Of a stretch of DNA of 64,000 bases, positions 13,530 to 44,160 are shown in pieces (the stretch's first letter is position 1; every line of letters begins with the position of its first letter). Where the stretch lies: assembly GCA_002205965.3 (NCBI GenBank), contig NADL03000681.1, forward strand, positions 62,001 to 126,000. The letters run 5' to 3'. The notes under the pieces were generated by a model. The model was not told where the DNA came from, did no database searches, and saw nothing but the letters and a program-made list of their open reading frames with translations. A program made the translations under genes and the position numbers. Origin of the DNA: Kappaphycus alvarezii. Taxonomy: Eukaryota > Rhodophyta > Florideophyceae > Gigartinales > Solieriaceae.

Positions 13530-14803
13530 GTTTGAAAAGTAGTTTAAGAATAATGGGCGGGTGGCGGGTGGCGGTAAGGGCTGGATACGGAAGATGGCAC
13601 AAAGCCCAGTGCAGATAAACAAAAGGCTTCCAGGGGTCAAATCCCGTGCATCAATCCCAGTCAATGACTTCATCTAACCAGAAAAGGAAGGGTGGCAAAG
13701 ATCTGTCCGACCTCTAAAGGGACGGGAGTGCCGTATCCCGCGAAGTTCGTAACCGCAAGTGCCGCGGCTCGAGCGTCAAGCATCGCAGAGAAGATTGTAT
13801 CCTAGGCCGATCGAAAGGAAGAACAAAAGTGAACTTCGGAGGGAGAGGGCAGACATCGATGATTAGAATCTAGTGGCTGGGTCTGCATACAAAAACCTGA
13901 GCTATACCAGCAGCGCGTCTAGTTTCAGTCTGGGGCAAACGTTGAAGTTTTCAAGGACAACCGTCGCATATAAAGAATCAAAGTTTCACAAAAAGTAAAC
14001 CCTTCCAAGATGAGAAATTTATTGGCTCCACAAGATTGAATGCGGATGACCGGGTTGTTGGAGTGGGCGTATCGCACCTCAGAAAATGTGCCGGACAGCT
14101 CTCGGCCAATGTGTGGAATGTCGGTGGATTCCGTTCCATTTCTCGCTGTTTCAAGTTTCGTGGTGTACAGGATTTAAAAGGTTGAAACACACGTGGCTAG
14201 TTGGGTAGTGCTTATTGGCGTGCCGTGTTTCAAATTTTCAACTATTCAAGGTTCAAACATCTACAGAACGCCCCTGAACTAAAATGGGGGTGAATTACTT
14301 TACCACAGACATATCCCTAATGCCCGTTGTGATCGTTATAGCCATCCCAACGCATAATTGTCGAAATAGATATTTTAGCATTATGATCGCTATACCGATC
14401 ATAGCTCCCGTTTTAAGGGGTACATTGCAACGGCTCTAACGTGTGAATTAGTCTTTTTGTTTCCAAGCCGTTGGATCTGGTTCTGAATAAGGATCAGCTG
14501 GAGATCTTTTCTGACTTTCCAGAACAGAAAAAGGACCAAAATTGCATGAGAGGTGGCCGGTCAAAATGTTCCCGATCCCTGATGGAGCCGCCAGGGCATC
14601 TAATGCCACTGGCTCGGGCGACGGGCTACCTTCAGCCTCTCATGCGCTACGAAACTCCACTAAGAGCGCTCCCCTTGACGATAGACAACAGTAAACTGCG
14701 CGCGTACCTCAGGAAAATTGTTTCGAGACGATATATCCAACCCAAGTGCGAGCCCCGTCGCTCACGACTCGCCATGCACCGAGCATAGGAGATGTAACGC
14801 AGA
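13530..14803. other. No gene supported
   Basis: No motif-bearing frame. The frame 14471-14788 (+) leads into the transposase relic and may be its decayed N-terminal or 5' flank. Confidence 0.35.
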
Positions 14804-17800
14804 ATGTGCGGCAGCTGCCAAGATCGAGAGGGCGTGGGTTCGCGAAGTCGCAGGGGAGGTATTGGGACTGCTGCAAGGGGAAGGCGGGCTGTAAGAAATG
14901 TCCGCGGTACGGGACGCACAACACAAGATGCTAGCTTTGGTTGGACGGTACGAGCCGCTGCGTGCAACTCGGTTATGCTGGAAAAGGAGTTTGGTGATAG
15001 CGTAATTCAGCACCGTGCAAGGTTTTTGTGCAGTTTATCTGTCGCAAATATGAAGATAGAGCTAAACGTCAGGAATCTGACGCCTAATCGAAGTGGCTTT
15101 GTGGTTTTAATGATGAACAGTCTGCTGAGGCAACTTCTAGACTGGCTAAACGAGTCAAACCGTTTAAAAAATATATCTCAGGAGATGCTGACGCTTGCGG
15201 ATATGTATTGCTATGTGGCTGTTTTGCTCTTCTCGCAAACGACGGGACTAAGTTTTGAGAAAACTATTGTCGTTTTGCGTCAATCCGGGAGTGTCACGCA
15301 ATCTGTAGATAAATTAAGATTCCTTGCAGCTAATATACTGGGATACTTGGCAACTGGACGAGGTACTACTGGATGCAGTCAATGGAATGCGCAGCGCGAT
15401 GAAACAAGGTTCCTTTCTGAGTTCGAGACTCTCGCGTTACGGGGCACTCGTAAAGTATTTTTTAATCCTCTTTACCTTGTGGCTACACTCGACGATGACC
15501 TTTTTGATACTAGGGCATCGGATAACCAAGTGAAGACATTAAGTTCAAGAAAGGCAGATAGAGAGGGACACTCTGCCGATGCTCTGGCAGGCGCACTTTT
15601 TCGTGTTGTTTTTGCTTTGCGATCCAGAAGACGCGGCGAGGCACAATCAGATTCTATGCGTAAGTTGCTCGATTCCTTGTTGGATGGACGCGGTGAGGAA
15701 TCTATGAACGGGTGTATTGTTACTGCGGATAGGGGCTATGGAAAAGAGAGTTTCATGCGAGTTCTCATGGAGCAGGGACTTTGCTCCGTTTTTGTTATGC
15801 CGGACCACATCTTGTGTTGTCATCCGTTCGTAGGAAAGTGTTTTTTGAACCCCTTCGGGGTGACATAGACGAAGAAGCTGTCGAGCCAGAAGATGAAGAT
15901 AGAGCTCAGGTATCCAACACCATTGGAGCAGGGACAACTGAATCCTCCACAGCTATTGCAGGCACGTCGAATGAGACTGCAAATCATCAATCATAACTTG
16001 GCAATCCAATGGATGCAGGGACGGAAAACATTTTAGATACACGAGAAGCACTTCTTACTGGCTTCGATAGAAGAAGGGCGTTCGTTATAGACGATGAGCC
16101 AGAGTTGGGACCGGAAGTATTTTTCGCCACTAAGAGCGAAGCCACGTTTGCTAAAAAGCTGGGACACGACAAAATTACTGCCATTGCAGTAAGGGAAAGA
16201 GGCAATGAAAAGTTCAGCAAAGTTTTGCGATTTATGTATACCGTCCCACCATCCTTGCAGAGCAGCTTGAACACGTGGATAGCGGTGCCTAAATCAAATG
16301 CTTCTTTGACTAATACCTTATTTAGTGGGACAAACTTGGATGAGCAGAACACGCAAGGCTTCAGAGAGGTCGCGGAAAGAGAAATTCTGTTGCACTGTCA
16401 TGTGCTCACATTAGGACAGAGATGTGCAGATTGGTTCGTGTTGCGACAGTTCAGGATAACGGGTACAAATGCTGGGCTTTAATTGAGATCAGATCCGGGG
16501 GTAAAAAGCAGATTAGGGATAAGGGAAGCCAGCGGGACGGATAGAGCGCAGGAGCAATTGTTTGACCCCCTGCATCATGGCTGGTTTAGCTCTAAAGTTT
16601 CGACTACCGCGATGATGGAGGAAACGCAAATAAGCGAGCCGTTTTTAATGCGATTCAGTCCATGTCATTTGTGAGATCTGTTTTTGAGCTCGGAATGGTT
16701 TCTATGAAGGGCGCCCGATACATAGCTTGTTCACCAGACGGGATTTTGTTTCTTTCACTGCAATACTTTGATGAATGGTCTAATGATCCAGATGGAATTA
16801 TCGACGTAAATGGAGAGCCCGCAGTGATCGCTTCAGTGGAGATCAAAACTAAGGTTGCTGCATCAAGTATTGGGCAAGTCGTGCATCTCAGCACGCCGGA
16901 TCTCATACGCTGTACACTTGGGGATGAGACATTCACGAAATTTGTGCCAACAGAGCACATGGCTCAAATTGTTCACCAGGTCGTAGTACTGCGATTTCAT
17001 TTTGCCTTGTATGTTGTAGCCGCAGAAACAGGAATTCTCTACACTGGAGAAATTCAGGAGCTGTTATTGACAAGAATAAGTTCTGGAAAATTATCGACAA
17101 CCACGTCAAGTTAAATGGATGCTATGTCCCCTTGAAACTATTCAAGCACGCAGCCCAAAGATTTTATTCCAAGACGAAAGCAGGAGTGGACGGGGCTACG
17201 CAGCAAAGGGCTGTTCTTCGAAGCTCAACATCCCACTTTAAATGGGAACAGAAAATCGTTTCGCAAGTCTTGAAGACAGTTGCGGTCAATGCTTTTTCGG
17301 CTGGCGCATGTTTCAACGTATGGACTTATTAGAAACTGTTCAATCATTTAAGTCGATTGAAAACTACCGAAACGCTCTCAACAAGGTATAGGCCACAGCT
17401 GATTTTATGTTAGACGTTTCAAAGGAGCTTCTAAGCCATGCAGCAACTATACAGCTGACCGGCGAACAGAACTGTATGATAGAAGAGATTACAGCTACTG
17501 AAGAAGTTCTGAGGCTTTTAGCGTTAGCTAAATCGAAAAGGCGAAACAGACTAGCGCTTTTCAATGGTATGGACGGCACAGCGCTCCGCCTCTCAATAAG
17601 GGGACATGCTCCAAAGCAGAGCTCTCTCATGTACTGCGCTCTATGTGGGCAGAAAAAAAGCGATGGATGGAGAGGACATAGGTCTACATACGGCTGCGCA
17701 CTTTGTGCTGTCCATTTGTGCCTGCGCACTTACCCCGGTTTACGAAAAAGCTGCTGGAACGTATGGCACGAGTCTAAATCTGGCATTTGGGATACGCAGG

Positions 17801-17829
17801 TGCAACATGCAGTCTTAAATATCCCACTG
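14804..17829 (+). pseudogene. PiggyBac-like transposase with inserted nuclease domain (decayed)
   Basis: Pieces in order: an N-terminal helical part (about 15050-15480); LVATLDDDLFDTRASDNQ with RKADREG (first acid, codon 15491); CIVTADRGYGKESF leading to VFVMPDHI (second acid, codon 15728); a nuclease module (16009-17114, separate entry); FYSKTKAGVDGATQ (third acid, codon 17189), then KWEQKIVSQVLKTVAVNAF; and a C-terminal zinc ribbon (about 17629-17770) with CALCGQ, YGCALC, HLCL and CWNVWH. The layout matches piggyBac transposases: VDE/FRG, CDNWFTS, NKxxGGVDxxDQ, then a cysteine-rich C-terminal domain. The frame changes at least four times and a stop lies at 16480, so the copy is dead. Family assignment is by motif order; no search was run. 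It stops just before a retroelement fragment. Confidence 0.65.
16009..17114 (+). other. PD-(D/E)XK (YqaJ-like) nuclease module inside the transposase
   Basis: After KFSKVLRFMYTVP and LTLGQRCADWFVLRQFRITG, the reading reaches GWFSSKVSTTAMMEE, FELGMVSMKGARYIACSPDG (Asp codon 16737) and SVEIKTK (Glu 16839, Lys 16845). SPDG followed by a strand with E-I-K is the signature of YqaJ/lambda-exonuclease type nucleases (GxSPDG...E-x-K). HMAQIVHQVVVL after it fits the Gln-bearing helix of that fold. The module is collinear with the second- and third-acid parts of the transposase on either side and is read in the same direction. The split into frames 1 and 0 and the stop at 16480 are decay. Insertion into an ancestral transposase is inference; two adjacent genes fused by decay is the alternative. 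Confidence 0.6.
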
Positions 17830-17896
17830 TAACAAACCTAAAACAATTAGGTTTGAATAGGGTGGCTAAACTCTGCGTGTTGTGGGGCGCCACATA

Positions 17897-17965
17897 ATAC
17901 AGACGCCGCACACGTGGACCAAATCGCATAACTAAGCTGCTAATAAAGCCGAGTCTTCACTCTGC
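17897..17965. repeat. Dispersed repeat, copy 2 of 3
   Basis: Contains CAGACGCCGCACACGTGG, then ATAAAGCCGAGTCTTCA, shared in order with 2533-2610 and in weaker form with 44232-44300. It lies between the transposase relic and the retroelement fragment. Confidence 0.45.
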
Positions 17966-19143
17966 TGCGCCCGCACGGCAGCGAACTTCCGCATACGCCA
18001 CGCCGCGTGCTTGTGCACTAGCTTCTGGCCGCTACCGCGGCGACCGGTCCTTCCTCCTCCGTCAGGCTGGGGCTTCTCTCCGCCGTTTGGCCCTCTCCAT
18101 CCCCGGAATAGTCGACCATTCCACCCTTGACCCTCCAACTCTAGCTGCTTCACCCACCAACACACTAACCCTTCTCAAACGGGTGCAGCAAGAGGCGCGG
18201 GCAAGAGTACATTGGCACGACGACTCCTGGGAGAATGCCCCAAACCCGATCGCCCATAGCGACGCCGACATTCGACATCGCATCCGTGGCCTAGCGTTCC
18301 GCCGCAGCCCCGCTGCGGCGTTTCTCTTCGCTCACCCCACGGCAGCTACGAATGTCCACACTACACACTGGCAGACCATGCTCCGCCGTCACCTCGGACT
18401 GCCAGTGTATGATGACTCCATGGCCCTCAACTGCCACCACTGTGACCACCCCTTGGACACCCTCGGGGATCACGCCGCCGACCTCTGCTGCCCTGGTTTC
18501 GGCCGTCGTCACCGCCACAACTCGCTATGTAATGCGATTGCGACGCACGTTATCCGCGCCGCGGGTCTGGATACTCGGCAAGAGGTTCCGTTCCTCGTCC
18601 CGGGCACTGAGCTCCGCCCCGCCGATATCCTTGTACAACCACCACCAACCCCGGAAGGCACAACGTTGCGCCCCATTGCCTGTGACATCACCGTCGTTTC
18701 ACCGTTCAAGGCCGCAGTTCGCACCAAGGCGACCCAGGTTGGCGGAGGCGCTGCTGAACTGGCGGCCCGCGACAAGGTTACAACCCTGGAACGCAACATC
18801 GCCCGACGCCTCCCCGCTCCATCGACTGGCCCATCTTCTGCGCCTCACACGCCGAACTTCACGTTTCGACCTCTGGCGTTTGATTCCCTAGGTGCCCCTT
18901 CCGCTGGAACTATTGCATTTATTGAGGAGTTAGTTCCGCGGATCGCGTCCAAGTGTCACTCGACAGTTGGCATTGTCCGCCGCCGTATCTACCAGCGACT
19001 GAGTTGGACCTCTGGTCCTCCATCGCTGAAGCTATCCTGTCGCGAGCACCGATGCGCACGGACGACGAAGTACATCCGGTTAGATCTTAACCGTATAGTT
19101 AGGACGTGCGCAGTCCACAGTAGGTACTGAACGCATTAAACTT
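17950..19143 (+). pseudogene. 5'-truncated non-LTR retroelement: C-terminal zinc and endonuclease region
   Basis: The 347-codon frame starting at 18087 is open further upstream (RGDRSFLLRQAG, about 18030). Its ATG codon is incidental. It carries VQQEARARVHWHDD, HRIRGLAFRRSPAAAFLFAHP, HCDHPLDTLGDHAADLC with RRHRHNSL (a Cys/His cluster), VPFLVPGTELRPADILV, IACDITVVSPF and DKVTTLERNIARRLP. The Cys/His cluster plus RPAD...D-I-T fits the restriction-like endonuclease end of R2-type non-LTR elements. The reverse transcriptase is missing, as in most 5'-truncated insertions. It ends in a 3' tail shared with 33584-33662. This is the best-kept copy of the family in the window. Confidence 0.75.
19065..19143 (+). 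repeat. 3' tail of the non-LTR retroelement
   Basis: 79 bases from ACGAAGTACATCCGGTTAG to ACGCATTAAACTT. The same stretch recurs at 33584-33662 with two differences. A weaker form follows the copy at 30.1-30.6 kb, and another reads on the minus strand at about 22310-22385. It marks the element's 3' end. Confidence 0.8.
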
Positions 19144-19194
19144 CTACTCAAGATAAATTAAGAGTAAAATGCAACTACAGTTTGAATACTGTAT

Positions 19195-19330
19195 TATGTA
19201 CTGCACAACCCTACCAGTTTGTACGGTACAGTACGTACACCGTAATACTGCACTGTACAAATTAATTACATTTTGACTGTCTAGCTTATACTGTTACAGT
19301 GCCGTACTGTACAGTACTGTACCACTTAAA
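19195..19330. repeat. TACTG/CAGTA cluster upstream of the prenyltransferase gene
   Basis: Repeated TACTGTAC, GTACAGTAC and related units meet at GTAC palindromes. The cluster ends about 320 bases before the start codon of the gene at 19647. It may be a promoter-proximal simple repeat or a binding-site array; there is no direct evidence for a role. Confidence 0.6.
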
Positions 19331-19646
19331 TCTCAAAGTTCGGTCAAAATCCGACTGCCCTTTAATCTTGATAGCAACCCCAAAAATAGCCGCGAATTCC
19401 CCTCTTTGACTACTCGCCACGCGCCAGTCTCGAAGGCCGCTGCCACCGTCCCGCCACGTACCATACTTCCGTGTACCACACCATCTGCAGCACACGGACG
19501 TTCTAACCTATCCTCTTTACATACCGCAGCCCTGTACCCATCCATTACATCGCCGCGACGCTGCAGTACACCCTCGAACTCCACCCCCACCGCTTCCCGC
19601 CCCCTCTCATCTTCACTTCAATCCCTCCACGCCCTCCCGCACTGCC

Positions 19647-22201
19647 ATGTCGCCTTCTCGTGTGTCATTGGTGCTGCGCCTGCTGCGCACTCCCATGACC
19701 ACGCTATCCGGCGTTACATACCTCGCTTCTTCTCTACCTGCAGAGGGCACTCTTTTGCTTGCCCCGCTCGTAGCAGGTTATGTTTTTACGTTGTTGACTC
19801 AGTTTACGACTCATGTTTTCGGGGAGATCTACGACTTTCCCTCTGATCTTCTTAACTTTGATCCTCCCCCACTCACTGGTGGCTCCCGCGTGCTTCCGTC
19901 CCACCCCTCACTGCTTCCCGCTTTGCCCAAATTCGCGTTCACACTCTTCTCACTCGCCCTGGTCTCCATCTTGGCGCTTGCTTCCCATGCACAGCCATTG
20001 GCTTTGCTTATTTTGCTTTTGGCTGTTTCTTACTCCGCGCCACCGTTCATGTTTAATCACCATGCCCTTGGTGAGCTTGTCGCCGCTGTGATTACCTCCG
20101 CCTTGCTGCCCCTTCTTGGACGTTCCATCCAACAAACTCCTACCTCACAGTCGCTCTCTACTTTTCTCTCGCTGTTCAAAATTCCCCCTTCCCTAATCCT
20201 GCTCATTATTCCTGCAACGTTTTCCAAGTTTTCCGTCTTTCTCGTACTTAATCTAATCGATCGTCGCCCTGATTGGGCCTCCGCCAAGTACACGCTTCCT
20301 GTTCTTCTTGGAGATCAACCTACCGCTAATCTCTATATCTTCTCAAATGCTCTTGCTTACATGGCACTTGTTGTCATTATGTATCTCAAACCTGCCGGAT
20401 GGTCCGACCGTGTTGCAGGCTTACTTATTTTACCCAGTGTCATTTTACCCATCCGTATCGCCAGACGTTTGAGGGAACAACGGTATCACATTGGCGGTGA
20501 TGTCGGCGGCTGGTGTTTGCTACATGCAACTTGGATGGTATGGGGCGTCTTGACGCAAAGATTAATAACTGGTTTAGGCGGTATATGGGCTTGGATCTTT
20601 GCGGCTGTGTTGGGATCTGTCACTGTACGCAATGCAATGCGCGGGGCGAAGGGTTCGTCCGGGAAGAAAGATGCCAAGGAAAGCGACCTGAATTGTGAGG
20701 GAATGCTTGGGCGAGTTCGAAGAGATACGGACTCCACTACAGAAAGGGATGCACATAGCGGAGAAGAGGGAGAAAGGGAAAGGGGTAAAGAGGTGGACAT
20801 GGGCTTGTTGAGGGCAGAGGAGGGGTTGGGACAGGGGGAACGGAGGAAAGATGTGGTTGTGATAGGGGGAGGGGTCGGAGGACTGATAGCAGCCGCAGTG
20901 CTTGAGAGGCTGGGCATGTCAGTCGTGCTGTTGGAGAGAAAGCCAGGGGCGAATGAGGCAGAAGTGGGAGCCGACCTCGCTTTGTGGCCAGGGGCAATTT
21001 CTATCTTGAAGCGATTGGGAGTGGGAGACGAGTTTTTCGAAAAGGAATGTTTCGGGCTGCAGACCGTGCATATTTGCAACATGGATTTTGAGAAAGTAGG
21101 AGAGGGGAATATGGCGGAAGCTGCAACCGTGTTGAAAACTATTAACATGGGAGCGGTGACAGAGGTAACAGGAGAAAGGTTTGTTTTGGTACCTCGGCAG
21201 AGGTTGATGGAACAGGTAAGGGGTCTGGTATCAAGGAGTGTGATTATATACGGAGCGGAGGTAGAAGGGGTCGAGGAAGATGAGGAGAGGAATATGGTCA
21301 TTACTTCATACTTGGAAAGAGGAGGTTTGACGCAGACGATGTGCTCGAGAATCGTTATTGGTGCGGATGGAGCGCGGTCGAGAATGAGAAAGCACGTGTC
21401 GCCAAGATTTGGGGGGGAGGATTCTGTACGTTTTTGCGGTGAGGTATGTTACCGTGGTGTCTTGAAAGTAGCAGAGGGAGAAGGCGGCGAGGAAGGGCAA
21501 GGAATCCTAGTAGGGAAAGTCGCTGAAAGAGTTCGAGGGATGTTGCCGGATGGAGTGGGTGACAGAACAATGAGGATTAACTATGGAGCTGGGCTTCGAT
21601 CATCTTTTGGGTACATGAGTGGGGACGGAAGTGTGATATACTGGTGGGTGAAAGAAGTGGTGGAGCGAATGCCGGAGGGTAGGGGCAAGGTGAAGGGAGG
21701 CGGCAGCGGATGGCCGGAGGTGTTGCGAGTGTTGTATGAGTTAACACCAGAGAGCCAGTTTTACATGCATGCCATTGAGGACAGTGTGGCTTTAGAGCGA
21801 TGGAGTTCTCCCCGGGTGGTGTTGGTAGGAGATGCAGCGCATGTTGTGACGCCAAACATGGGACAGGGGGCTTGCTTGGCTATCGAGGATTCGTTTGTCC
21901 TCGCGGTGGAGTTGGCGAGGTTTTGGGGGTTTGCGGATGGTCACTTAGAAGCTTTTTACAAATACGAAAGATCTCGAAAAGACATTGCGGAAGGGGTCGC
22001 CAGGGAGGCAAGGAAACAGTTGAGGTTAGGACAACTGAGAAGTGAATGGGCGTTTGGTTGCGGGAGTTATTGTTGAGATTCGTTCCGGAGAGTATTTTGG
22101 TGAAGACGTTGCAACGGAATTTGTTTGATGTGGATGATTACATTCGTTGGTTTGGCGAGATGGAAAGAGGCTCCTTGCAGCTTGAAGCGCGTGAGGCTTG
22201 A
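19647..22201 (+). CDS. UbiA-type prenyltransferase fused to FAD-dependent monooxygenase
   Basis: Residues 1-325 form a multi-span membrane part with the two UbiA Asp motifs, GEIYDFPSD (59-67) and NLIDRRPD (202-209) followed by KYTLPVLLG; these bind prenyl diphosphate through Mg2+. A charged linker (about 330-400) follows. Residues 402-800 are a class A flavin monooxygenase: VVVIGGGVGGLIAA (FAD-binding GxGxxG), VIGADGARSRMR (DG motif, 570-580) and VLVGDAAHVVTPNMGQG (GD motif, 725-741). It resembles zeaxanthin epoxidase-like and meroterpenoid epoxidases. The open frame stops at 22074, but from 22052 another frame gives VWLRELLLRFVP and later FDVDDYIRWF to 22199, the expected tail, so one base seems missing near 22050. 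It is a single exon; the first ATG is used. Likely role: prenylate an acceptor, then oxidise the product. Substrates are unknown. Confidence 0.85.
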
Positions 22202-22314
22202 CGTGGGTCGTCAGGCAAGACACTGTAGGTTCATACCGTACTGCCTAATGAAGATAACTACTGCGCCTAACCTGACAACAAAATAGGGCGATGTGCGCAA
22301 TGAAAATAGCCATT

Positions 22315-22730
22315 CAGTTACAGCAAATAGTTTCTATCGTGTCCACTGCAGTCCGACTGGAGGGCTAGGAACTAACCGGATGGTACACGTGGGTCGTGCA
22401 GAGGCGTGAGTGAGCAGATAGCCATGGCGATAGACGACCAGAGGATGCAACTAAGGCGCTGATACAAATGCCGGCGTATCACGCCTGCAGTCGTGCTATA
22501 CTTTCGCGCTATTTGCGGGATTAACTCCTCGAGCAATACGATAGCTTGGGGTGCAGGCACACCGAGAGACTCAAAAACAGTTTGTTGAAAAGTGAAGTTT
22601 GGTGCACTGGTCGGGATTTCGGACGGTGGAGGGAGGCGGCGCGACAGCTTGCGTTCCAGATGCTGTAACTTGTCCCGGTGTGCCAATGCGACAGCACCGA
22701 CAGCGGCCGAAGTGGCTTAAGTGCGGAATG
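22315..22730 (-). pseudogene. Non-LTR retroelement 3' fragment, minus strand
   Basis: The minus frame gives HRDKLQHLERKLSRRLPPPS, NFTFQQTVFESLGVPAPQAI and LLEELIPQIARKYSTTAGVI, matching the last 100 residues of the family (DKVTTLERNIARRLP, FDSLGAPSAGTIAFIEELVP). A version of the element's 3' tail (TAACCGGATG on the plus strand near 22373) lies beyond it. Only the C-terminal end is present. Its 3' end faces the prenyltransferase gene. Confidence 0.75.
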
Positions 22731-22770
22731 CGGCTTCGCATACCAGATGCTTAAGATACAGTACACTCCC

Positions 22771-24395
22771 CGAAAAATAATAGGACCAACAACGAAAGGC
22801 TTGTGTCTTTGTGAAGCACCTGCAACTCGCTAGCGTCTATACCACCATACACTGTCCTCATGTGAGGCACACTTTGTCCTTACATTTTGGAACGGTAAGT
22901 GTTTTGGAATCCCGAAATTTTTACTGCTACAAAGGTTTTTTTTGTTAAGTTACAGTACAGTAATTCTTACTGTACATGCTCCCTCGTTTCTAAAACCCCC
23001 CACGATAATACGAACTATATTTCCTTCCAAAATGAAGCCGTAGCTTAACGATAGCTGATCTGGATTCCAGTCCTGTTCTGGATCCGCTTGGGCCAGGCTG
23101 GCTACGTGGCACTGCAAGCGTATCGCGGTTCTAATTGGCCACTGGATAGTGTTCGAAAAGAATTTTAAAAAATAAGTATTGTTAGTATTTGCCGGCTTAC
23201 ACGTGGCTTTAAACAACGCGGAAATAGAACAAATATATATTTTTCACTATCGAATAGCAAATAGACTTACTTCTTAAATTCCCCGAAAAACGGTAAATCC
23301 GGATTGTCGCGAAAATTCAAGGGTTAGAGTAGAAAAAGCAGACGGGCGGCGTTAGCGGCGAGTCTGAAAAAATGTTAGACGTTTTTTGGCTAGTGTAGAA
23401 CAGTGGGGTAAGTTGAGAATAAAATCGTTGATGGTGGGTTTTACTTAAGTGCCCAAGGCGGCTAAGCCTTTTATAGACAGTAGATGCCGCTGACTATCTC
23501 TAGCACATCTACTATCTAATTACTAGATTCCCTAGCGGATAGTCCTGCGGACGGCCCTAGTGACCCTTACACCACAACAGTCCTAGCAGGCTTCGCTGAC
23601 AGTAAAATTGAATAGAGAAAATATAGACTACGTAGGATAAAAATAGGAGTAAGGGCAAAAAAAACTACACTATAGGACTGTAAATAGAACATAAATAAAG
23701 TATATTTATCCTGTATTTCGACAGTTTTCACAGCTTCTTGCGAAGAGCGGAAGCTGGTGAGGGAAAACTGCTCTAGCCTTCCCCGAGGTCAATAATCTTG
23801 AAAAGTTTGTTTTGATCGGCCATCTACACTCATGAACTAATGCACAGGGACAAGGAATGCGCTGAGATAAAAAATATTGTGTTGAAAAAAGTGCTAAAAG
23901 TACTCCTCATATGATGACAACGGTCCAATAGACACTAGAGAAAACGTACTGGGTTTACAGTGCGGAAGTACAGCACTGTACAGTAGAGTAGAAAATTGGT
24001 AGTCAGATAATAAAAATGAAACCTTCTGTAACGACTAGATACAGTACTAGAGAGATTACGCAGAACGAAATTAGTATCTTTTTTCAGAAATAAATAACAC
24101 AAAGATACGGTTTAAGTGTTCCCCAATTTACGCCGGACGTTTTTTGTGCATGTATTGGGAGTATGAGCGCACAAAATATCGCCTCCCACTGTAGTCAAGT
24201 CCGACGTAGTTTCGGATATTGGCCAATTTATATATCTCTCCCTCATTCTTTGTGTCCAACTTTCCGACCGTACTCCCCCGACATGCGATCATGCCTCTTG
24301 CAGATTTCAAGCTGGGCAAGCGGCAGGAGTGTAGGGATAAATAAGTATTGACGGCACAAAGCGCTATATTGGCTGGTGAAGAAGACCTCTCGCTT
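22771..24395. other. No gene supported; one Tc1-end-like scrap
   Basis: CCCCGAAAAATAATAGGACCAA-type sequence at about 22770-22795 resembles the outer ends of the Tc1/mariner relic at 26.9-28.2 kb. The rest is AT-rich with short frames and no motif. Confidence 0.35.
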
Positions 24396-24399
24396 TCGT

Positions 24400-25400
24400 G
24401 TCTGAAACATACCGTCAAGGTTCAAAAGGACATCGATATTTTGCGCAGCCGCTCCCGCCGCATATCTACGATCACTTTCAATTTGAACACGCTAACGGAA
24501 GGGGAAAGCATGACGGTATGCAGGTTTGCAAGAGCGCAAATCGGGGTGCTGGAAGGAATATTCACGACGCGCAATCGCTATTTTTGTGACCCCGTTACTG
24601 CTTGCTGTATTTTTTGCGAATACTTTCGTCCCTTATTCATCTAGTGCAAGGAATCACTTGGTATGCAACCTTCAAGATTGAGTGAGGTATTTTGGGAGAA
24701 CATGGAGGTATTTATGGAGGCCGAAGGGTATTTTCTCACCCTTAATCCGCAGTTGAAGCGATCCAGAGCATCGATCTAGGCAAAGGCAATGGAGTAGAAT
24801 GTATTTCCACTGGATCGCTGTGTTGGGTAAATTGACTGTACTAAGATCCGAAAGACGAGGCCAGGAGGACACGTAAGTTTGTAGCGAAGCTGCTATTCAG
24901 AACATAAGCGTATGCACTGCCTCCTATATCAGACAATTGTGGCTCCGGAGAGCCTTATATTTATACTTCATGGACAGCGGGAAGGCCAAGGACATGATCT
25001 CACGAATTTTTTTAAAGAGACGGATATGGAGGAGAAGCTATCGGCAGTCCTTATAATTGATTTTGTGTAATAATACGTATGCGGAGATTCCGTTCACATC
25101 ATGAGGCCGTGCATGATAAGGCCTTTCGACCGAATGAGCGCCACCACTGGTCAGAAGGCTTTCACCATTGCGACAAGCCAGCTTCGTGCCATGGTTGAAT
25201 GGAGCTATAAAGCTTTGAAGCAACAATGGTCTTGGAAAGATTTTTCTCTCGGATTGAAGATGGCACCTTTTGCGCTTCTTTATTAGACTTCTGCCCTTTT
25301 GCGAAACTTTAAGACATGCATAGATAAGGGCATGCAGACGTCCTGCTACTTCCAGTGCACATCGCCCTCCCTTCAGCAATACATTGAGTCCGAGTAAACG
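24400..25400 (+). pseudogene. PIF/Harbinger-like transposase relic
   Basis: The clearest part is 25125-25395: RMSATTGQKAFTIATSQLRA, then MVEWSYKALKQQWSWKDF, LKMAPFALLY, a stop, and ALLRNFKTCIDKG with PSLQQYI. This follows the C-terminal third of Harbinger-type transposases, where R-x-x-V-E-W-x-F/Y-K and a late N-F-K/R helix are conserved. Upstream, 24400-25060 is broken by stops and only loosely suggests the earlier part. A partner ORF faces it at 25619-26535. Confidence 0.5.
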
Positions 25401-25618
25401 AGAAAGTTGGAGTTTTTTCTACTCTAGTCAAGTCACGAAATGGACGTAAACCATTCCGGTGCGCACCTGATATGCTCATAGAGCTATTATCGTTTGTACT
25501 CCATTGTGAGGGCGCTAGGCCAGCTTAGCAAGCATTTTGTCTATTATTTCTAGGATTTTAGCCCTTTATTTCCTAGCCTCCCTTCGCTCCTCTTTATCCA
25601 TTTCCACTCGAGCTTCGT

Positions 25619-33680: not shown

Positions 33681-33849
33681 TAGTATGTATGACAGGTTTC
33701 CGCTGCAGGATCTGGCAGCACTTCTAGCTCAGAGCTAAACTGGTGGACCTCGTCGGCCATATGCAGCGATATGCGCGAAAAATATATTGTGTAACAGACG
33801 AATAGAGCACCCACAGCCCGCCTTTTAATATAAGGCAACACAAAATAGA

Positions 33850-35200
33850 CCACCAGGTTACATAAGTAATGCGACTGTTCATGCCTGTGCGGATAACTCC
33901 GACTGTGCTGAACTTCTCCGCGATTCGCGGCAAGAGACCCTCCATGAAGAGGATATTTGCAGGAGGCGAACCCGTGGAATCGAAGGCCTGCGGTCGGAAC
34001 TCGAAATTGGGAGTCTGTGTGGGGTTGTCTGAGGGCGGGGGGAGTCGACTCGACAGTTTCCGCTCCAGGTCGGCCACCTTGTTGCGGTGCGAAATTGCAG
34101 CAGTGCCGCCCACTTCCGTAGTGGCTTTCTCTCGTACATCATCCTTGAACGGAGAGACATCGGTGACATCGCAGGCGATCGGGCGGAACATGGTGCCTCC
34201 GGGTGCTACTGCTGGGTGGACCAGTATGTCGGCGGGTCGCAGCTCAGTGCCTGGCACGAGGAGCGGAACCTCGATCTGCCAGTCCAAGCCGGCCGCACTG
34301 GCGATACGGCGGGCAATGACGTTGCGGAGAGAGTTATGTCGGTGTTTGCGACCGAAGCAAGAGAGGCACAGGTCCATTGCGTGGTCTCCTCGCCTGTCCA
34401 TCGGGCGTTTACCATGCTCGCGGTTCCGAGGAAGCGAGTCATCGTAAACGGGCAGCCCAAGGTGGCGTCGTAACATAATGTTCCAGTGTACCGCAGACAC
34501 TTCCATGTCGGCGGAGGGATGTGCAAAGAGGAAGGCGATACCGCGGCCTCTGCGGAACGCGAGACCGCGTATCCGTAGCAGCACCCCGGCGTCAGTGTGG
34601 AGGTCCGCGTTCCTAGCTGGTGCCGTCGCCGCGAGTATAATCGATCCCGCACCGGCCCGCGTCAGGTCCGCAACCGACATCGGGCCCCGCTCCATCGCGC
34701 TCGGCAGACTTCGCTACAGCCGCGACAAGGCTTTCCTACTTGGCCAAGCCGGCCCTACCATTCGCGAGTTCCTGCTCCAAATCCCTGGCATTCCCTGCCC
34801 CGTCGACCTGGGTTCCTTCGACCCGCTCCCCCTCGCTGCAGCACACACCCACGTTCAAAGCTACCTCAAAGGTGTGCAGCAGGAGGCGCTGGCCACGGTT
34901 CACTGGCGTGACGACAAGTGGGCCAGATCTCCGAACACGATGAGATGAGGGTGAACCCAAGACCACCGTCTCGGAGGGGCAGGGTTGTCTGCGACCACGC
35001 TTTGTCTGTGAGCTGAGCACCATGAAGCTCGTTAAAGGACTTCTGTAGCAGCGTATCGAAAGCCTCGGCATCCGTTCGGGCGTCCCGTGGGTCAGCAAAC
35101 TTGAAGGCGTGGTCAACCAAACAGGCCGACGCGCAGAGGCGATGCATGTGAAACCGCGCGCGCGGGTATTCAACCATGGGCAGGAGCTGAAGAGTTCGGC
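33850..35200 (-). pseudogene. Non-LTR retroelement copy 3 with internal inversion
   Basis: Read on the minus strand from 35200: FHMHRLCASACLVDHAFKFA, LLQKSFNELHGAQLTDKAW and LPLRDGGLGFTLI (the post-reverse-transcriptase linker), up to about 34950. The next part of the protein lies on the plus strand (34600-34945). The minus strand resumes at about 34595 with DAGVLLRIRGLAFRRGRG, AFLFAHPSADMEVSAVHW, GDHAMDLC with RKHRHNSL, VPLLVPGTELRPADILV and IACDVTDVSPFKDD, ending near 33850. The endonuclease residues are kept, though some Cys of the Cys/His cluster are lost. The reverse transcriptase itself is absent. Confidence 0.75.
34600..34945 (+). other. Inverted internal segment of retroelement copy 3
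   Basis: On the plus strand it reads LAGAVAASIIDPAPARVRSA, LRYSRDKAFLLGQAG, IREFLLQIPGIPCPVDLGSF and VQQEALATVHWRDDKWARSP. In the collinear copies (18 kb and copy 2) this part sits exactly between GGLGFTL and the RIRGLAF block, which here flank it on the minus strand. So about 345 bases have been flipped in place. Confidence 0.75.
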
Positions 35201-44034: not shown

Positions 44035-44160
44035 ACTGCATACAGTACAGTACTGTGCGTAGCGTACAGTGCAGCCTGGTTTGTTTACACTGATGTACAT
44101 ACTGTACTCAACTGTACTGCACTGTACAGTACTGTACTATACAGTACAGTACAAATGTGC
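44035..44160. repeat. Dense TACTG/GTAC cluster
   Basis: Over 120 bases largely of TACTGTAC and ACAGTACAGTAC units in both orientations, the densest such block in the window. Confidence 0.8.

Follow-up and report, generated by a model that had tools for sequence, protein, structure and literature searches.

The stretch of Kappaphycus alvarezii DNA analysed here (64,000 nucleotides, hereafter the window) contains an open frame of 809 codons, running from ATG to stop at positions 19647-22076 of the + strand, in which a UbiA-type prenyltransferase, a linker and a FAD monooxygenase follow one another. The reading that we favour, though by no means firmly, is that a single nuclear gene, red-algal in origin, encodes here a membrane-anchored two-domain enzyme, in which prenylation would be followed by flavin-dependent hydroxylation of the same product. 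From the sequence we infer the nuclear location, the placing of both domains on one membrane face, the substrates, the sequential action and any channelling. The features of the locus are as follows:

19446..19646, + strand: pyrimidine-rich leader, 69% C+T (base composition)
19647..22076, + strand: fused open reading frame, 809 amino acids (open frame and Pfam)
19701..20471, + strand: UbiA-type prenyltransferase domain, residues 19-275, MenA-like by NCBIfam (Pfam, NCBIfam)
19821..19847, + strand: first Asp motif, GEIYDFPSD, residues 59-67 (motif and alignment)
20250..20273, + strand: second Asp motif, NLIDRRPD, residues 202-209, followed by WASAKYTLPV (motif and alignment)
20637..20840, + strand: charged linker, residues 331-398 (composition, comparison of copies)
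20850..22076, + strand: group A FAD monooxygenase domain, residue 402 onward (Pfam, NCBIfam, alignment to solved chains)
20865..20882, + strand: GxGxxG motif, GGGVGG, residues 407-412 (motif)
21366..21371, + strand: DG motif, residues 574-575, within GADG at 572-575 (motif)
21828..21833, + strand: GD motif, residues 728-729, with GDAAH starting at 728 (motif)
22052..22201, + strand: C-terminal tail of family-like sequence, VWLRELLLRFVPES...EAREA, out of frame in the window and continuous in the second copy on contig C649

Both halves of the protein are recognised by Pfam. UbiA (PF01040) matches residues 19-275 with 38.0 bits against a cut-off of 34.2, covering positions 5-232 of the 250-position profile, and FAD_binding_3 (PF01494) matches from residue 402 with 97.4 bits against a cut-off of 22. 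An earlier note, made from the letters alone, had proposed that a UbiA enzyme and a FAD monooxygenase share one open frame, and with both domains above cut-off within 19647-22076 this holds. The motifs that it listed are all present, but it placed GxGxxG and DG one residue too low. Its end of the gene at 22201 has to be given up: 19647-22201 comprises 2555 bases, a number that three does not divide, and the stop codon of this frame ends at 22076. The description of the gene as a single exon would fit the uninterrupted frame.

Dinucleotide shuffling indicates how readily such a frame stays open by chance. The whole frame was open in none of 2000 shuffles and the 126 codons that separate the two Pfam matches in two of 2000; the 68-codon linker alone was open in 120 of 2000, and its openness by itself is therefore weak evidence. 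The opposite strand carries an ORF of 271 amino acids (20486-21301, - strand), mostly within the monooxygenase half, which is probably a shadow of the codon composition of that half.

The UbiA superfamily is marked by two Asp-rich motifs, one resembling NDxxDxxxD and the other DxxxD. Both are kept in the fused protein (D63, D67, D205 and D209), the first beginning with G-E. When the half is aligned with five UbiA proteins from bacteria and archaea, 16 positions are invariant in all six sequences, including D63, D67, G78, G79, Y129, P133, G142, E143, D205, D209, K214 and T216. Position 59, at the start of motif 1, is Gly in the fused protein and Asn in all five relatives (N-E or N-D). Members of the superfamily have some nine membrane helices; eight hydrophobic stretches of this half exceed the threshold, and about ten longer helices appear in a low-confidence model.

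In NCBIfam the UbiA half scores best with the MenA-type group PRK06080 (PRK06080.1-5; 50.1 bits, 2.2e-13), yet it falls short of every MenA equivalog cut-off (50.1 against 555, 37 against 264 and 30.7 against 277). Neither TIGR00751 and TIGR02235 nor TIGR01474, the model for COQ2/UbiA 4-hydroxybenzoate polyprenyltransferase, is among its nine NCBIfam matches (E up to 1), and it reaches no NCBIfam cut-off at all, those for MenA, COQ2 and homogentisate transferase included. The same genome encodes a COQ2-like protein (locus L010; 313.7 against a cut-off of 275.45), a MenA of cyanobacterial/plant type (L019; 239.9 against 225) and a homogentisate-phytyltransferase-like protein slightly below its cut-off (L013; 219.2 against 226). 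The fused MenA-like domain is thus an additional enzyme, and given the other MenA a dedicated role in phylloquinone synthesis is unlikely. In plasmid records the UbiA half comes closest to a protein of Candidatus Megaera polyxenophila annotated as MenA, which is 30% identical to it and shares with it the patterns ExYDxxSDxxN...TGGSRVL and NxxDxxPDxxxxKxTLxV. The fused domain differs from the MenA/UBIAD1-like group in the Gly that replaces the motif-1 Asn and in its tethered monooxygenase. A kinship of this half with UBIAD1 is presumed, in part from the available text of PMC6189191.

The second half belongs to the group A flavin monooxygenases by its Pfam score and by its GxGxxG, DG and GD motifs. 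A solved hydroxylase of 405 residues can be aligned over nearly its full length, its positions 25-392 pairing with residues 398-805. Among solved relatives, aromatic hydroxylases such as 6-hydroxynicotinate 3-monooxygenase, salicylate hydroxylase and TropB score best. The three flavin motifs are common to these enzymes and to HpxO (presumably the protein of PDB entry 3rp6), to which arrangement the fused protein adds an N-terminal membrane enzyme. The half reaches the cut-off of none of the 25 NCBIfam families listed (the best 25 of 122). It scores 135 against an equivalog cut-off of 500 with the model for the FAD-dependent urate hydroxylase HpxO and 78.4 against 224.65 with that for COQ6/UbiH (TIGR01988), and the 25 plasmid-record matches listed are 23-31% identical to it. 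Where NicC has His47, which we take to be its active-site residue, the fused protein has Ala and the other chain compared has Gln, so that the domain should not be named NicC. The earlier suggestion of an epoxidising enzyme finds no support in the comparison with solved chains, where aromatic hydroxylases score best; no zeaxanthin epoxidase or meroterpenoid epoxidase reference was found among the matches listed. By eye, the out-of-frame tail at 22052-22201 is similar to the way in which bacterial relatives end (CRLRNTAVSILPEAVFKR in locus L054, for instance).

A search of the same assembly (336,021,096 bases in 884 contigs) revealed a diverged second copy, with the same UbiA-monooxygenase junction, on contig C649. 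Collinear blocks extend from window position 1474 to 46476 at 76-93% DNA identity outside the gene and are broken by long stretches unmatched in C649 (14159-19175, and 22765-34161 except for one match of 175 bases); C649 is therefore a diverged haplotype or a segmental duplicate. The fused frame is 96-97% identical to C649 at the protein level. Of the 52 window frames of at least 110 codons that match C649, none does so over a greater length or at a higher identity than the fused one (96.3% over 727 residues). The other 51 range from 40 to 95%, and those with at least 90% lie mostly within a block of 92.7% DNA identity.

Substitutions between the two copies, counted in the window frame, are mainly synonymous in both catalytic halves: 11 synonymous and 4 non-synonymous in the UbiA half (pS 0.046, pN 0.006, pN/pS 0.13) and 16 and 9 in the monooxygenase half (pS 0.056, pN 0.0095, pN/pS 0.17). 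The linker has 2 and 5 (pS 0.032, pN 0.025), and the totals are 29 and 18 (pS 0.049, pN 0.010; Fisher p ~5e-8). Both catalytic halves are thus constrained and the linker hardly so. C649 lacks 30 bases of the linker with the frame preserved. Each copy, as assembled, contains a break in the frame. In C649 it lies in the N-terminal part, where residues 1-95 and 73-802 are matched in different frames; in the window it lies near the C terminus, where the tail at 22052-22201 is out of frame, while in C649 this tail is in frame with the monooxygenase.

A third contig, C103, matches window positions 15587-25616 (about 10 kb) at 99.4% DNA identity. It has no substitution in the UbiA part (898 bases) or in the monooxygenase part (1230 bases), and 11 single-base and one 3-base length differences inside the ORF. 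In its linker, 11 of 289 positions mismatch, close to the 3-base gap where the alignment is uncertain. We rejected C103 as an independent pseudogene, since neither domain holds a substitution and only lengths differ; it would instead represent the window locus once more, as a redundant and noisy contig. To judge from C103, small differences in length are probably not to be relied on in this assembly, and the breaks in the window and in C649 may or may not be real.

The linker (68 residues) consists of 44% D/E/K/R and 22% hydrophobic residues. Codon position 3 is pyrimidine-rich in the UbiA half and purine-rich in the monooxygenase half. This opposite GC skew was considered as a sign of two joined genes and rejected, because control loci show the same 5'-to-3' fall in pyrimidine. 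Among loci with a G+C content of 0.48-0.54, 18 of 19 have more position-3 pyrimidine in the first quarter than in the last (the exception is L028); this applies to two of the eight loci with a G+C content of 0.57-0.62, which may be bacterial contigs. The 27 control loci comprise 18 of the 26 in one locus set and 9 more; they include some near-identical pairs, and their start codons are approximated. Loci L009, L014, L015, L018, L032, L033, L037 and L041 were omitted as copies, interrupted or short. The shift from pyrimidine to purine along genes might help to locate gene starts in this genome.

Over the first 100 codons, position-3 pyrimidine ranges from 0.46 to 0.86 in all 27 other loci and is 0.64 in the fused frame. 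Hypothetical monooxygenase starts at residues 330, 360 and 398 give 0.28, 0.24 and 0.31, all outside the range of the 27 loci, so that a gene start before the UbiA half only is most likely. As evidence for a single gene this composition is supporting, not decisive. In the 200 bases upstream, 11 of the 19 algal-like loci have at least 60% C+T. The shared junction in C649, the constraint on both halves and the lack of a compositional start signal in the linker together support the fusion as a single gene.

In the proposed mechanism, the UbiA half would use its two Asp motifs to bind a prenyl diphosphate, whose chain it would pass to an aromatic acceptor, in all probability a hydroxy-benzoate, a hydroxy-naphthoate or a quinol. 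The flexible charged linker would lead to the monooxygenase on the membrane face of the Asp motifs. With NAD(P)H, FAD and O2, that domain would add a hydroxyl group to the prenylated ring, and a carboxyl group may be lost in the process. The product would be a prenylated hydroquinone or a similar compound. The charge distribution points to this topology: when ten helices are counted, with limits set by eye and 8 of the 10 passing the hydrophobicity threshold, the loops and termini on the Asp-motif side hold 13 K/R and those on the opposite side 2. The Asp-motif side carries both motifs, loop 8-9 (4 K/R) and the segment after the last helix (4 K/R), which suggests that the monooxygenase lies on this side, where the prenyl diphosphate is bound. 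No long targeting sequence was seen by eye ahead of the first helix. The structure prediction that had been proposed as a check yielded an AlphaFold model from a three-row alignment, but at a mean pLDDT of 44.2 it was too poor for use. More specifically, and only tentatively, a single polypeptide may let a red-algal UbiA enzyme pass its membrane-held aromatic product directly to the tethered flavin monooxygenase, giving a prenylated hydroquinone or a hydroxylated prenyl-naphthoquinone by a route other than the standard ones to ubiquinone, phylloquinone and tocopherol.

Both families are well known; their combination, and its red-algal host, seem to be new. The full protein gave 10 matches in its own genome (19 candidates scored): nine fall on the three copies, and the tenth, 33% identical and limited to UbiA, is on contig C533. 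In this search the monooxygenase half had no close relative standing alone. With tblastn against 72,556 plasmid records, 162 records were matched, none covering 80% of the query. When the halves were searched separately in 50,697 phage records, UbiA matched one and the monooxygenase five. Peptide-pattern scans found no relative in genome contigs and no fusion in viral sequences, where two monooxygenase-only loci appeared; because the patterns are strict, these absences are weak evidence. The earlier note knew of no protein with this domain order; none was found in the prokaryotic, viral and plasmid sources searched. Among the open-access papers listed by literature searches, none described a UbiA-flavin-monooxygenase fusion.

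Several known systems resemble parts of the proposed enzyme. 'Rosetta stone' fusions of IspH and UbiA occur in sulphate-reducing bacteria (PMC4746011). According to the available text of that paper, they likewise combine UbiA with a redox enzyme from isoprenoid synthesis and keep two DXXXD motifs, but there UbiA forms the C-terminal part, and its partner, an iron-sulphur reductase, acts before prenylation. A plasmid protein of Roseinatronobacter sp. S2 (WP_277806833.1) combines Flavodoxin_2 (113 bits) and UbiA (80 bits); its domain order is the opposite of ours, and its partner domain is FMN-reductase-like, not a FAD monooxygenase. This protein (L060:5290-6783), annotated merely as an NAD(P)H-dependent oxidoreductase, is itself a fusion of a flavodoxin-like domain with UbiA. 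In vibralactone biosynthesis, as far as the available text of PMC10257657 goes, a UbiA prenyltransferase (VibP1/VibP2) acts and a group A flavin monooxygenase (VibO) later, as proposed for the fusion; these are separate fungal proteins with two reductive steps in between. The references of that paper name a B. vibrans monooxygenase for oxidative decarboxylation. According to the available part of PMC6189191, Chlamydomonas and Cyanophora contain a mono-hydroxylated phylloquinone, and plants and mesophilic red algae have the PHYLLO fusion. Vibralactone, hydroxylated phylloquinone and PHYLLO are thus precedents for parts of a sequence of prenylation and hydroxylation.

The fusion could be real without being a two-step enzyme, the UbiA half serving mainly as a membrane anchor or using another substrate and the monooxygenase acting on something unrelated. 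We hold this to be unlikely. It would suit a motif 1 without the usual Asn and a UbiA score barely above its cut-off, and the IspH-UbiA authors, in the available text of PMC4746011, also consider that the UbiA part may bring its partner to the membrane; the four motif aspartates are nonetheless kept together with K214 and T216, and pN/pS is as low in the UbiA half as in the monooxygenase. We find it rather improbable that the locus is a decaying duplicate, both copies being broken and the full-length protein no longer made. Against such decay stand the bias of the inter-copy substitutions towards synonymous sites, the doubtful small length differences exposed by C103 and the complete motif sets still in the window frame, although the window and C649 do have one break each, at different places, and the large neighbouring ORFs, without a Pfam match above cut-off, look by eye like mobile-element remains.

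There is little likelihood that two overlapping or adjacent genes, transcribed or translated separately, merely seem fused. The linker is the least constrained part and its openness comes cheaply in shuffles, as two genes might predict, but a stop-free run across the 126 codons between the Pfam matches does not, the linker frame survives the 30-base difference in C649, and the start of the monooxygenase differs in composition from the 5' ends of all 27 other loci. An assembly artefact joining unrelated genes is already largely refuted and hardly credible. The assembly is redundant and, from C103, seemingly noisy; the junction, which the earlier note had named as a possible assembly error, is nevertheless found on three contigs. 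C649 is not the same DNA assembled twice, because it differs by 5% at synonymous sites and has large unmatched stretches nearby, and with the same junction in this diverged copy a chimera was rejected.

Eight other window ORFs (7 of the 22 others of at least 150 amino acids and one of 104) were scanned with Pfam: seven had no match, one matched below cut-off (TPR_Edg1) and none was biosynthetic. The framing in terms of fungal and bacterial meroterpenoid pathways is thus not borne out, as the host looks red-algal and none of the eight scanned ORFs is biosynthetic. About 4.9 kb of the window (14285-19175), with ORFs 14804-15868 and 18087-19130 that have no Pfam match, is missing at the matching place of C649 and is probably a mobile-element insertion. 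The ORFs 18087-19130, 22372-22686 and 33724-34695, also without Pfam match, look alike and perhaps form one mobile-element family: the first and third have AFLFAHP and LRRHLGLPVYDDS in common, and the first and second a stretch ending in YQRLS. Repeated palindromic stretches resembling GTACAGTACTGTAC occur at 19170-19330, just upstream of the fused gene, and at 44094-44152.

Elsewhere in the assembly, contigs C533, C534 and C546 (loci L011, L012, L016, L017 and L020; G+C 0.57-0.62) carry bacterial-type genes of the UbiA family, namely chlorophyll/bacteriochlorophyll synthase, heme o synthase and MenA-like genes, and are probably contigs of an associated phototrophic bacterium. A phycobilisome-family protein with a long N-terminal extension is encoded at L045:1216-1881 (contig C669) and also at L044 (contig C74); the best matches of the L045 protein are chains of the ApcF/allophycocyanin beta-18 type. 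Such a protein is as expected for a red alga.

Enzyme fusions often mark consecutive steps of a pathway. If this is true here, the fused gene would point to an undescribed prenylated aromatic compound in a widely farmed seaweed. It would also offer a ready-made test of substrate transfer from a membrane prenyltransferase to a soluble oxygenase, and the fusion may serve as a template for joining such enzyme pairs in pathway engineering.
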